A stretch of DNA of 64,000 bases from NCBI RefSeq assembly GCF_001905665.1, contig NZ_LIVX01000015.1, positions 62,001-126,000 on the forward strand. Reading direction: 5' to 3'. The first letter of the stretch is position 1; each line of letters begins with the position of its first letter. Origin of the DNA: Streptomyces sp. CB02261 (GTDB lineage: Bacteria > Actinomycetota > Actinomycetes > Streptomycetales > Streptomycetaceae). Under the pieces are notes generated by a model, which was not told where the DNA came from, searched no databases, and worked only from the letters and a program-made list of their open reading frames with translations. The position numbers and the translations under genes were made by a program. This document shows, one piece after another, positions 36,529-53,479 of this stretch.

Positions 36529-36557
36529 GTGTCCCGGACCAGCCCGGTCCGGGACAC
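36529..36557 (+). terminator. Terminator after the five-helix protein
   Basis: GTGTCCCGGACC (36529-36540) and GGTCCGGGACAC (36546-36557) form a perfect 12-bp stem with a 5-base loop, 80 bp after the stop codon. Confidence 0.85.
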
Positions 36558-36615
36558 TTGGGTGTTACGGGGGTGTACCGGTGGTGTGGGGTGTTGTTCG
36601 GGAGGGGTGGGGCTG

Positions 36616-38715
36616 ATGGTGCGGCGGTCCGGGGGGCTGATCGGTGTGTGGGCCGAGCAGCAGCGGGTGGCGCAACGGCAGCGGGAGGGGCAGCACCAGG
36701 CGGTGCTGCGGGAGCAGCGGGACGCCGAGCGGGCGCAGCGGGCGTACGCGCGGGATGTCGCCCGGATGCAGCGGGAGCAGCGGGTCGCCTATCGGCAGCA
36801 GCGGGAGGCGGACGCGCTGGGCCGGACAAGGGAGTTGGAGGAGCGTGTCGCCCTGCTGGAGGGGCTGCTGGCGGCCGGGTGCCGGGCGCCCGCGTTCTCC
36901 GTGGGGTCGCTGCGGCGGGAGGAGACCGTCGAGCCGTTCTCGCCGGGGCGCCTCGGGGAGCCCGTCGCCATGCCCGACCAGCGGTTCTACCAGCCCGAGA
37001 GCGCCTGGACCGCGTCCGGGCGGGCGCAGGCCGAGCGGGACGCGCGCGCCCGGTTCGAGCGGGACTGGTACGCGGCGCAGGCCGCCGAGGCCCGGCGTGT
37101 GGAGCAACTGGCCGCGTACCGGCGGGAGTACGACACCTGGGCCGCCGCCCGGCTCGCCGAGGTCCGCGCGCACAACAGCGGTGTCGCCGGGACGGAGGCG
37201 GCGCTGCGCGACGGTGACGCCGAGACCGTCGTGGAGTTCTTCTCCGCCGTCCTCTTCGCGTCCACCGGCTGGCCCGAGGGCTTCCCCCGGGAGGTGTCCG
37301 CCGCCTACGCGCGCGGCGGGCGGACGCTCGTCCTCGACTGGGGCCTGCCCGGGTACGAGGTCGTTCCCGAGGCCAAGGGGGTCAAGTACCTGCCCAGCAC
37401 CGACCAGGAGAAGGAGGTGCCCAGGCCCGTCACCCAGCGGCGCGCCCTCTACCGCGACGTCATCGCGCAGAGCGTCCTCCTCGCCGTGCGCGAGCTGTTC
37501 GCCGCCGACCGGTTCGGTGCCCTGGAGACCGTCACCCTCAACGGGTACGTCGGTGGGGTCGATCCCGCGACCGGGCTCGCCGGGAGGGTCTGCGTGGCCT
37601 CCGTCGCCGTCGAGCGGAGCGTCTTCGACCGTCTGAACCTGGAGTTCGTCGGGGCCGTCGAGTGCCTGACCGGGGCCCTCGGCGGGCGGCTCGCGGCCAA
37701 GCCCGACGAGCGGGCGGCCGTCGTCCCGCTGCGGACCCCCGGCCAGGTCGGCCCGGACGTCGTCGTCCAGGGGGACGGCGAGGAGCCCGATCTGCTGGCC
37801 ATGGACCCCATCGCCTTCGAGGGGCTCGTCGCCGAACTCTTCCGGGCCCGTGGGCTCCAGGCCGTCACCACCCGCCGCTCCAACGACGGCGGGGTGGACG
37901 TCGAAGCCCTCGATCCCGACCCCATCAGCGGCGGTTCCATCGTCGTCCAGGTGAAGCGGTACCGGAACACCGTGCCCCCGTCCGCCGTACGGGATCTGTA
38001 CGGGACCGTGCAGGGCGCCGGCGCGAACAAGGGCGTCCTCGTCACCACCTCCAGGTTCGGGCCCGGCTCGTACACCTTCGCCAACGGCAAGCCCCTGACC
38101 CTCATCGCCGGGACCGAACTCGTGGACCTGCTCCACCAGCACGGGCTCCGGGGGCGGCTGGGGCCAGGGTCCTCGCCCTCGGCCACCGTCGCCGACACCC
38201 CCGCCGTGGACGCGCCCGTCGAGGCCGACGCCGGCTTCAACCTGCTCGGCATGGTGTGGGCCGGCTCGGCCGCGCTCGACGTGTGCGCGCTGGTCTGCTC
38301 CGGCAACCAGGTCCTCGGTGACGAGTGGTTCGTCTTCTTCAACAACCCTTCCACGCCGGACGGTTCGGTGTCGATGGCGGCCGCGGCGCCCGGCGACCGG
38401 GTCGCCGTACGCGTCGGCTTCGACGCGCTGCCGTCCCGGGCCGACCGCCTCGTCCTCGTCGCGGCCGTCGACCCGGAGGTGAACCCCGAGGCGGATCTCG
38501 GGGGGTTCACCGATGCCGGTATCCGGCTGCGCGACGACTCCGGGGCCGAGCTCGACCGGCTCGTCGTCTCGGACGGCCGGCCCGGCGAGACGGCCCTCGT
38601 CCTCGGCTCGTTCCGGCGTCGCGCCGGGGGTGACTGGGACTTCGTCCTCGGCGGGAAGGGGTACCGGGGCGGTCTGGAGGAGCTCGTGGGGGACTTCGGC
38701 ATCCAGGTGGAGTGA
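36616..38715 (+). CDS. Coiled coil-Mrr nuclease-TerD fusion protein
   Basis: 699 aa, soluble. Residues about 12-85 and 135-185 form Arg/Gln/Glu-rich coiled coils; about 200-380 is an uncharacterised alpha/beta middle. At about 393-510 lies an Mrr-type PD-(D/E)xK nuclease: MDPIAFEGLVAELFRARG (Glu402), RSNDGGVDVEAL (Asp428), VVQVKRYR (Gln445-x-Lys447, the QxK form of Mrr enzymes). A C-terminal TerD domain spans about 545-699 (WFVFFNNPSTPDGSV, YRGGLEELVGDFGIQVE). Mrr nucleases cut modified or foreign DNA; TerD domains belong to stress and phage-resistance Ter systems. ATG at 36616 has GGAGGGG upstream. It stands alone, 50 bp before a convergent oxidoreductase gene. Confidence 0.88.
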   Translation: MVRRSGGLIGVWAEQQRVAQRQREGQHQAVLREQRDAERAQRAYARDVARMQREQRVAYRQQREADALGRTRELEERVALLEGLLAAGCRAPAFSVGSLRREETVEPFSPGRLGEPVAMPDQRFYQPESAWTASGRAQAERDARARFERDWYAAQAAEARRVEQLAAYRREYDTWAAARLAEVRAHNSGVAGTEAALRDGDAETVVEFFSAVLFASTGWPEGFPREVSAAYARGGRTLVLDWGLPGYEVVPEAKGVKYLPSTDQEKEVPRPVTQRRALYRDVIAQSVLLAVRELFAADRFGALETVTLNGYVGGVDPATGLAGRVCVASVAVERSVFDRLNLEFVGAVECLTGALGGRLAAKPDERAAVVPLRTPGQVGPDVVVQGDGEEPDLLAMDPIAFEGLVAELFRARGLQAVTTRRSNDGGVDVEALDPDPISGGSIVVQVKRYRNTVPPSAVRDLYGTVQGAGANKGVLVTTSRFGPGSYTFANGKPLTLIAGTELVDLLHQHGLRGRLGPGSSPSATVADTPAVDAPVEADAGFNLLGMVWAGSAALDVCALVCSGNQVLGDEWFVFFNNPSTPDGSVSMAAAAPGDRVAVRVGFDALPSRADRLVLVAAVDPEVNPEADLGGFTDAGIRLRDDSGAELDRLVVSDGRPGETALVLGSFRRRAGGDWDFVLGGKGYRGGLEELVGDFGIQVE

Positions 38716-42631: not shown

Positions 42632-43630
42632 CTACGGCACCAGCACCACCTTGCCCACCGTGCCCCTGGTCTCCAGCGCGCGGTGGGCGCCCGCCGCGTC
42701 CGCGAGCGGGAAGCGGTGGACCGCCGGGCGGAGGGTGCCGGTGGCCGCCGCGTCGAGGGCGGCGAGTTCCAGCGCGCGGACGTCGCCGCCCGCCTTCTGG
42801 ATCATGACGGGGCCGAGGACGGACTCCGAGGTGATGCCGCGCGCGGCGAGTTCCTCCGGGGTGAAGGTGAGCGCCTCGCCGTCGTGGAGGCCGGCGCCGG
42901 ACCAGCCGAAGACGATGTGCCGTCCGCCCTTGCCGAGGAGGCCGACGGCGGCCCGGCCGGTGTCACCGCCGACCGAGTCGTAGACGACGGTGGCGGTCCG
43001 GTCGCCCAGGTACGCGCGGACCTTCTCCGGCCAGTCGGGCTCCTTGTAGTCGACGGCCAGGTCGGCGCCGTTCTCCTGGACGAGGGCGACCTTCGCGGGA
43101 CCGCCGGCCAGGCCGATGACGGTGGCGCCGGCGTTCTTGGCGAACTGGACGAGCAGGGTGCCGATGCCGCCGGCGGCGGCGGGCACGATCGCCACGGATT
43201 CGGGGCCGAGTTCGGTGAACTGGAGGATGCCCAGGGTGGTGCGGCCGGTGCCGATCATGGCGACGGCCTCCGCCTCGCCGAGGTGGTCGGGCAGGGCGTG
43301 CAGGCGGGCGGCGTCGGTGACGGCGAGTTCGGCGTACCCGCCGGGGTTCATGCCGAGGTGGGCCACGACCCGCTTGCCGAGCCACGCCGGGTCGGTGCCC
43401 TCGCCGAGGGCGTCGACGGTGCCGGCGACCTCGCGGCCCGGGACGGTCGGCAGGGCGGCGGGCGCCGGGAACGGGCCCGTCATCCCCTCGCGGAGCGCGG
43501 TGTCGAGGAGGTGCACGCCGGCCGCCGCGACCCGGACGCGGACCTGGCCGGGGCCCGGCACGGGGTCGGGCGTCTCCTCGTACGTGAGGTTCTCGGCGGG
43601 GCCGAAGGCGTGGAGGCGGATGGCGTGCAT
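42632..43630 (-). CDS. Zinc-independent MDR quinone oxidoreductase, SoxR-regulon candidate
   Basis: 332 aa. Medium-chain dehydrogenase/reductase: GroES-like N-terminus (VRVAAAGVHLLDTALREG), VPGREVAGTVDALG, and nucleotide-binding AAAGGIGTLLVQFAKNAGATVIGLAGG. It lacks the catalytic and structural zinc Cys, like NADPH:quinone reductases that detoxify quinones. In the upstream region a perfect SoxR-type inverted repeat sits in a 19-bp promoter spacer. From memory an orthologue (SCO4266) belongs to the S. coelicolor SoxR regulon induced by redox-active antibiotics such as actinorhodin. Confidence 0.92.
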   Translation of the reverse strand: MHAIRLHAFGPAENLTYEETPDPVPGPGQVRVRVAAAGVHLLDTALREGMTGPFPAPAALPTVPGREVAGTVDALGEGTDPAWLGKRVVAHLGMNPGGYAELAVTDAARLHALPDHLGEAEAVAMIGTGRTTLGILQFTELGPESVAIVPAAAGGIGTLLVQFAKNAGATVIGLAGGPAKVALVQENGADLAVDYKEPDWPEKVRAYLGDRTATVVYDSVGGDTGRAAVGLLGKGGRHIVFGWSGAGLHDGEALTFTPEELAARGITSESVLGPVMIQKAGGDVRALELAALDAAATGTLRPAVHRFPLADAAGAHRALETRGTVGKVVLVP

Positions 43631-43712
43631 GGCGGATCCCCTGTCGTCGTACGGATGGGTGTGCGCGGTCGTGCGGTGACGGTGTCCGCGCGGGTCGTGC
43701 GGTGACAGGGCA

Positions 43713-43743
43713 AGCCTCTGACCTCAAGCATGGTTGAGGTCAA
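43713..43743 (-). promoter_or_regulatory. SoxR box within a promoter of 19-bp spacing
   Basis: TGACCTCAA (43719-43727) and TTGAGGTCA (43734-43742) are perfect 9-bp arms around 6 bases. On the minus strand -35 TTGACC (43738-43743) and -10 GAGGCT (43713-43718) are separated by 19 bp, as in SoxR/MerR-controlled promoters, and CCTCAA/TTGAGG is the core SoxR recognition sequence. It lies about 85-115 bp upstream of the quinone oxidoreductase start. Confidence 0.85.
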
Positions 43744-43778
43744 GGGGGTGGTGGGGAGACCCGCCGTGCACGCCCCGA

Positions 43779-43842
43779 GTCACGCCCGCCACGCGCCCCG
43801 CGTCACGCCCGCCGCGCGCCCCGCGTCACGCCCGCCGCACGG
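43779..43842. repeat. Short 23-bp tandem repeat downstream of the FAD oxidoreductase gene
   Basis: GTCACGCCCGCC-type units begin at 43779, 43802 and 43825; the last one covers the stop codon of the minus-strand oxidoreductase gene (ending at 43826). Confidence 0.75.
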
Positions 43843-44998
43843 CCAAGTGGTCCGCGCGCAGCGCCAGCGACACCGCCTCGACCGCGCTCGTGAACGACAC
43901 CTCCGACAGCACGCCCGGCGCCGCCACCTGGTCGCCCACCAGGTACACGCCGTCGCCCCGGTCGACGGCCGGCCGGTCGCGCCAGGTCGTGCCCGGGCGG
44001 TCGACCGCCCCCGTACGCCCCTGGGACATCGCCTCCCGCCGCCACACCGTCCGCTCGCGCCAGCCGGGGAAGCCCAGGTCGAGGAGGCGTTCGGCGTGGG
44101 CGACGCCGTCCGCCTTGGCCGCGTCCGGGCCGACGGGCAGCTGTGCCTGGATCAGCTGCTGCCCTGCCGGGGCGAGTGAGGGGTCCTGGGCCGTGAACCG
44201 TTCGATCCAGCCGGGCTCGTCCAGGTCGGAGATCACGAACGGGTCCCCCTTGCGGCTCCGCAGCGCCAGGTCGAGCAGGACCGTACGGCCGCTCTCCCAG
44301 GTCAGCGACGGGTCGTCGAGGAGCCGGGCGGCGGCGGGCAGGGAGGTGGCGACGATCACCGGTCCCTCGCCCCCCGGAAGGTCGTCGAGGCGCTCGACGC
44401 GCGACGACGTCTCGATCCGTACGCCCGCCTCCCACGCGCGCGCGACCATCCGCTCGATCAGCTCGCCCCAGCCGCCGCGCACGTAGTGCGCCTCGGGCGG
44501 TACGGCGGCGGCCCGGTGCAGCCGTTCCTGCACGAAGCGGGCGGAGAGCGCGCCCGGGTCGTGGTGGAAGAGCGCGACCCCGGCGTACGCGGCGGCCACC
44601 CGCGCCGCCCGCTCGCCCGCGAGCCCGGTGGCCCAGGTGCGGAAGTCGAGGTCCACGGGGGCCTTGTCGGCGGTCCGCAGGGACTGCCGCAGCAGGCCGA
44701 GCGGGGGGGTGCGGCGCAGGGCGCCGCCGCGGTGGAATCGGAACCGGAGGCCTTCGGCGGGCGGCAGCGGGGCCAGCGGCCCCAGGAGACCGCGCTGCTT
44801 GAGCCAGGTCCAGTGCGGGCCGCCGGCGTAGAGCGCGTGCGGACCCTCGTTGGTGCGGTAGGTGCCCTCGGCCGTACGGGCCCGGCCGCCGGGGGTCCGG
44901 TGCGCCTCGTGCACGGTCACCCTGGTGCCGGCCTCGGCGGCGGTGATGGCCGCGGTCAGTCCCGCGAATCCGCCGCCGATGATCGTGAGCTTCCGCAT
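43826..44998 (-). CDS. FAD-dependent oxidoreductase (phytoene dehydrogenase-like)
   Basis: 390 aa. FAD-binding LTIIGGGFAGLTAAITAAEAG and VHEAHRTPGGRARTAEG at the N-terminus, and GVYLVGDQVAAPGVLSEVSFTSAVEAVSLAL at the C-terminus, the frame of amine-oxidase/carotenoid-dehydrogenase-type flavoproteins. The middle has a helical substrate domain with Arg/Leu-rich segments. There is no carotenoid gene cluster here, so the substrate is open. It lies 196 bp upstream of the quinone oxidoreductase gene, on the same strand, and is divergent from the pentapeptide gene (107 bp). Confidence 0.85.
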   Translation of the reverse strand: MRKLTIIGGGFAGLTAAITAAEAGTRVTVHEAHRTPGGRARTAEGTYRTNEGPHALYAGGPHWTWLKQRGLLGPLAPLPPAEGLRFRFHRGGALRRTPPLGLLRQSLRTADKAPVDLDFRTWATGLAGERAARVAAAYAGVALFHHDPGALSARFVQERLHRAAAVPPEAHYVRGGWGELIERMVARAWEAGVRIETSSRVERLDDLPGGEGPVIVATSLPAAARLLDDPSLTWESGRTVLLDLALRSRKGDPFVISDLDEPGWIERFTAQDPSLAPAGQQLIQAQLPVGPDAAKADGVAHAERLLDLGFPGWRERTVWRREAMSQGRTGAVDRPGTTWRDRPAVDRGDGVYLVGDQVAAPGVLSEVSFTSAVEAVSLALRADHLAVRRA

Positions 44999-52903: not shown

Positions 52904-53479
52904 TCAGAGGTTGACGCCGAAGTCGCGGGCGATGCCCTCAAGGCCCGAGGCGTAGCCCTGGCCGACCGCGCGGAACTTCCACTCGGCGCCGTTGCGGTAG
53001 AGCTCGCCGAAGACCATGGCGGTCTCGACGGCGGCGTCCTCGGAGAGGTCGTAGCGGGCGATCTCGGCGCCGCCGGCCTGGTTGATGATGCGGATGTACG
53101 CGTTCCGCACCTGGCCGAAGTTCTGCGAGCGGTTCACCGCGTCGTAGATGGAGACCGGGAACACGATCTTGTCGACGTTCGCCGGGAGGCCCGCGAGGTT
53201 GACGTTGATCTGCTCGTCGTCGCCGCCGCCCTCGCCGGTGCGGTTGTCACCGGTGTGCACGATGGTCTGGTCCGGCGTCGACTTGTTGTTGAAGAACACG
53301 AAGTGCGCGTCGGAGGCGACCTTCCCGGCGGCGTCCACACCGATCGCGGAGGCGTCGAGGTCGAAGTCGGTGCCGGTGGTCGTACGGACGTCCCAGCCGA
53401 GGCCCACGGTGACAGCGGTGAGGCCCGGGGCCTCCTTGGTCAGAGAGACGTTGCCGCCCTTGGACAGGCTCACAGCCAT
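52904..53479 (-). CDS. terD: TerD family calcium-binding stress protein
   Basis: 191 aa, a stand-alone Ter[42 protein letters not shown] (Ca2+-binding DxDLD), [57 protein letters not shown], and [18 protein letters not shown]. TerD proteins contribute to tellurite/oxidative-stress and phage resistance and, in Streptomyces, to development. The TerD part of the Mrr fusion at 36.6-38.7 kb is a divergent relative in the same window that has lost this DxDLD wording. Confidence 0.96.

Follow-up and report, generated by a model that had tools for sequence, protein, structure and literature searches.

A probable SoxR-controlled promoter of an oxidoreductase gene lies at 43713-43743 on the minus strand of the window, the 64,000-nucleotide stretch of Streptomyces sp. 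CB02261 DNA analyzed here, and this promoter is real and strongly conserved. With a probability of roughly 0.93, we interpret it as a SoxR operator set in an over-long, 19-base promoter, through which oxidized SoxR would switch on an ecaD-type reductase gene. The features of the promoter and its target are as follows.

43738..43743, minus strand: -35 element TTGACC, overlapping the left half-site of the operator
43719..43742, minus strand: SoxR operator (soxbox), a perfect 9-6-9 palindrome; exact match, none in shuffles
43713..43718, minus strand: -10 element GAGGCT, 19 bases from the -35 element
43704..43708, minus strand: probable transcription start zone, 5-9 bases past the -10 element
43637..43642, minus strand: AGGGGA, probable ribosome-binding site from sequence reading, 5 bases ahead of the ATG
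42632..43630, minus strand: target gene, 332 aa, zinc-less MDR-type NADPH reductase (quinone-reductase/ActVI-ORF2-like; class from Pfam), probable ecaD (SCO4266) orthologue

An earlier note on this DNA had claimed a perfect SoxR-box palindrome within a -35 TTGACC/-10 GAGGCT promoter of MerR-type 19-bp spacing. The palindrome was exact at 43719-43742, where the operator reads TGACCTCAAGCATGGTTGAGGTCA with 0 mismatches; its half-sites form TGACCTCAA-N6-TTGAGGTCA, and the core CCTCAA-N6-TTGAGG within it is likewise exact. A search for the palindrome with up to 3 mismatches gave 0 matches across 100 shuffles of the window. The coordinates of both promoter elements were also confirmed: read from 43743, the minus strand gives TTGACCTCAACCATGCTTGAGGTCAGAGGCT, and the spacer between TTGACC and GAGGCT measures 19 bases, with the operator within. 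GAGGCT is without the initial T of a -10 element, and the ATG of the 332-aa gene lies 82 bases beyond its end. The start zone was placed at 43704-43708 because the distance from the -10 element to the transcription start in S. lividans averages 6.3 bases, with a range of 4-9 (PMC8079986). Overall, the analysis supports the earlier note as correct in its observation and essentially right in its interpretation. A divergent promoter on the plus strand was considered and rejected, since CTGACC resembles TTGACC but AGGGGG stands at the matching position, leaving no -10 element. A 23-base repeat occurs in three copies (43771-43838; 95% alike) that lie over the 3' end of the FAD-oxidoreductase gene upstream, immediately ahead of the SoxR promoter.

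Distortion of the spacer by a bound activator is the established mechanism of the MerR family. In the mechanism proposed here, the operator would be occupied by dimeric SoxR, a [2Fe-2S] protein whose gene lies elsewhere in the genome, and its cluster would be oxidized by redox-cycling compounds, namely quinone or phenazine antibiotics of the strain itself or of a neighbour. Oxidized SoxR would then distort the spacer and shorten the effective spacing, so that the -35 and -10 elements align for RNA polymerase; the ecaD-type reductase would be transcribed, and the enzyme would probably reduce, modify or tailor the compound. The E. coli soxS promoter has the same CCTCAA-N6-TTGAGG operator and 19-base spacing, but its -10 element is TATACT-like, compared with GAGGCT here, and in the present promoter SoxR would act directly on the enzyme gene, with no SoxS step. 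An alignment of the soxS promoter with S. coelicolor promoters has been published (PMC4146615, Fig. 3C).

Conservation among relatives and rarity in the genome

Relatives of the target protein in named genomes were collected by protein similarity, and the best 80 of 171 were used. All 80 carried the box within 400 bp upstream at no more than 4/19 mismatches (0, 1, 2, 3, and 4 mismatches at 6, 28, 29, 14, and 3 loci, respectively). Neither of the controls, 318 windows taken from these loci and 400 upstream regions after first-order resampling, gave a match with fewer than 6/19 mismatches. The promoters of these 80 relatives were aligned together with the window promoter (n = 81). The TTGACC -35 element was present in 81/81, its columns having belonged to the alignment pattern. 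The columns of the -10 element lay outside that pattern, and xAnnnT occurred at exactly 19 bases from the -35 element in 79/81 promoters; position 2 was A in 79 promoters and position 6 was T in all 81, whereas alternative spacings of 15-23 bases gave no -10 signal. The geometry described by the earlier note is thus conserved beyond this strain.

The right half-site departed from exact TTGAGG in 17 of the 80 relatives. Among the relatives, L028, L030, and L035-L040 have a right half-site of TCGAGG or similar rather than TTGAGG. To judge from these half-sites, the SoxR site may be decaying in part of the genus, with this group possibly included.

A whole-genome pattern search located perfect CCTCAA-N6-TTGAGG at 3 places in the 7.7-Mb genome. 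The longer TTGACCTCAA-N6-TTGAGGTCA, at up to 3 mismatches, returned the same 3 places (5 strand-wise matches), and its backwards control gave 1 match in the genome. The second perfect site (L001) lies upstream of an ABM-type monooxygenase-like gene, ecaB-like as named from sequence, for which no NCBIfam match was obtained, and the third (L002) is upstream of an FMN-reductase-like gene, SCO2478-like. The three sites correspond to three gene kinds of the published S. coelicolor SoxR regulon (PMC4146615). Across the genus, oriented TTGACCTCAA-N6-TTGAGG was present in 320 of 392 Streptomyces genomes, with 0 backwards-control hits among the matches listed, and MDR-type oxidoreductases with a soxbox are widespread in Streptomyces.

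SoxR as the probable regulator and competing explanations

The genome encodes one SoxR above the cut-off (236 bits vs. 116.9), and this protein carries the CX2CXCX5C cluster motif. We then considered 148 genomes of the class, in which SoxR above the cut-off was found in 72 and an exact box in 39. SoxR above the cut-off accompanied the box in 38 of the 39 box genomes (Fisher p 4e-14, a statistic that ignores kinship and genome size), and 34 of the 72 SoxR genomes were without an exact box. The box is also physically linked to soxR: in 10 of the 72 SoxR genomes, it lies 12-60 bases ahead of the SoxR-coding match and is oriented away from SoxR. In another family of the class (L170, 1380-1680), a box lies between soxR and a divergently transcribed gene that is 58% identical to the target, and L183 shows the same divergent layout with a 49%-identical relative. 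Co-occurrence and linkage support the earlier proposal of SoxR as the regulator, and, as far as sequence comparison indicates, the protein acting at 43719-43742 is almost certainly SoxR.

The box might instead be owned by another MerR-family activator with SoxR-like half-sites. Apart from SoxR itself, the genome encodes 14 MerR-type proteins that match the SoxR model, each under the cut-off, and another genome, G427, a 470-contig assembly, has two exact boxes (C16:7766 and C91:2295) with no SoxR above the cut-off, its best MerR match reaching 63.9 bits. However, the 8 MerR-type genes adjoining the 58 box loci all encoded Fe-S SoxR; the lack of non-Fe-S MerR genes beside the boxes is meaningful because the same search recovered 7/7 such genes supplied as a positive control. 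With SoxR in nearly every box genome and the S. coelicolor ecaD promoter bound by SoxR itself (PMC4146615), we regard another activator as very unlikely. A touch less probable still is a relic box, with the ecaD-type gene read by readthrough or from another promoter and SoxR control being weak. The same-strand gene upstream ends at 43826, only about 83 bases ahead of the box, no terminator-like site was found in 43500-44000, and the missing first T of the -10 element points the same way. Nevertheless, neither half of the palindrome carries a mismatch, and across relatives the -10 element is fixed at positions 2 and 6; decay would not have preserved these, which disfavours a relic.

The probability that the palindrome arose by chance in G+C-rich DNA is practically nil. 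Chance is refuted by the conservation of the box in 80/80 of the best relatives (of 171) and is excluded by the presence of only three perfect sites in a genome of this size, which stand at genes of the published SoxR regulon; the shuffles also yielded none.

The target gene and its probable orthology with ecaD

The gene call at 42632-43630 was sound (GC3 0.98, ATG start), and nearly all relatives of the 332-aa protein among the matches listed align from residue 1. The Pfam domains ADH_N and ADH_zinc_N scored above cut-off, placing the protein in the zinc-binding-dehydrogenase (MDR) superfamily. The earlier label of quinone oxidoreductase held at this superfamily level, whereas the curated cut-offs of TIGR02824 (PIG3 quinone oxidoreductase; 163 bits vs. 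296.8) and PRK10754 (NADPH:quinone reductase; 122.2 bits vs. 348) were missed. Quinone reductase activity is accordingly a putative, superfamily-level homology label. Zinc-containing MDR enzymes have the motif GHE; at this position the 332-aa protein reads GRE and would therefore lack the catalytic zinc ligand. The closest solved structure is 9vxk_A, 'Oxidoreductase' (E 2.7e-52).

In S. coelicolor, ecaD (SCO4266) likewise has a SoxR box within the promoter of an oxidoreductase gene, and its product resembles ActVI-ORF2 (PMC4146615). SoxR binds this promoter at about 5 nM; expression of ecaD is strong in the wild type but slight when soxR is mutated, and the SoxR regulon, which comprises six genes, responds to actinorhodin (PMC4146615). 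Counterparts of ecaD with boxes occur in 5/6 other species, namely S. avermitilis, S. clavuligerus, S. griseus, S. lividans, and S. venezuelae (PMC4146615, Table 4). We found no difference between the ecaD system, as described in that paper, and the window gene. A second type of SoxR-controlled quinone-oxidoreductase-like gene is represented by S. coelicolor SCO0320ext, S. lividans SLI_0274, and S. avermitilis SAV_4018, but only 23 percent of SCO0320ext homologues have a box (PMC4146615), compared with 80/80 of the best relatives (of 171) of the window gene. The window gene is for this reason more likely of the ecaD than of the SCO0320ext type, and we infer that it is the probable ecaD orthologue. 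By analogy with ecaD, SoxR binding and SoxR- and actinorhodin-dependent expression would be expected in the present strain. The more distant MDR genes behind boxes (L152, L198, L134, and L206; 41-54% identity) may be of the SCO0320ext type.

The surroundings of the gene were also compared. A TerD gene at 52904-53479 is about ten genes from the target gene, a distance that fits the spacing from SCO4266 to SCO4277, the tellurium-resistance gene of S. coelicolor (PMC7244524), while the contractile-injection cluster sits on another contig. In S. coelicolor, this cluster (sco4242-4263) is beside SCO4266 (PMC10020575, PMC10066040). The sheath gene was found here on contig C14; it was present in 12 of 15 genomes searched and was far from the ecaD-type gene where positions were compared (e.g., G247), and the S. 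venezuelae cluster has very different locus tags (vnz_28865-28935; PMC10020575, PMC10066040). The cluster was therefore dropped as a synteny marker for SCO4266, and it speaks neither for nor against orthology. Elsewhere in the window, an open frame at 36529-38715 combines an Mrr-type restriction-endonuclease domain with a TerD domain. As a sign of quinone production, we considered the type II polyketide cyclase PF04673; its one match above cut-off (G000:C14:363390-363701) was set aside, as it could equally be a spore-pigment gene.

Leader lengths of SoxR targets and biological meaning

We surveyed leader lengths at 90 Streptomyces box sites (L126-L155 and L196-L255), which are related by descent and 89 of which had a recognizable gene. 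The start codon stood 6-7 bases past the -10 element at 48 sites (40 at 7 and 8 at 6); at the remaining offsets between 3 and 12, an ATG was seen only 4 times. Outside the ecaD-like cluster, the 6-7-base position was found in 47/61 sites, spanning at least 7 protein clusters, and it recurred in clusters unrelated to one another, named from sequence as ABC transporter, FMN reductase, transketolase-like, and MarR/PadR-like. In the ecaD-like cluster, to which a few MDR genes of lower similarity also belong, it was found in 1/28, and in the best 80 named relatives (of 171) in 1/80. Other families of the class showed it in 11/24 sites. An ATG so close to the -10 element leads to the prediction of leaderless mRNAs, which make up 21% of mRNAs in S. 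coelicolor (PMC4895711) and 17% in S. lividans (PMC8079986). The first -10 position was T in only 2/81 ecaD-type promoters, and in S. lividans it is T in 42.9% of leadered promoters (PMC8079986). The main texts of three start-site papers mentioned neither SoxR nor the SCO numbers; such targets would be expected in supplementary tables.

These patterns raise the tentative possibility, to which we would give somewhat less than even odds, that box, -35 element, 19-base spacer, -10 element, and ATG of SoxR promoters are locked together as a compact cassette across the genus and that most targets are leaderless. The leadered ecaD-type gene, with the first T of its -10 element nearly lost, would then be the exception.

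The present instance is ordinary, being the Streptomyces form of a well-studied switch, and the SoxR-promoter system has already been described. The analysis adds the reductase gene of one more strain to the SoxR response to redox-active antibiotics, and it demonstrates the tight conservation of the ecaD-type SoxR promoter; in this strain, the enzyme is predicted to serve self-protection or tailoring and to be induced by quinones from the strain itself or from a neighbour. If start-site maps bear it out, the leaderless pattern of the other targets would be the more interesting point, linking redox-drug sensing to translation without a ribosome-binding site. The SoxR response of antibiotic producers would then be split into a leaderless part, translatable under drug attack on ribosomes, and one leadered, more tightly SoxR-dependent enzyme.
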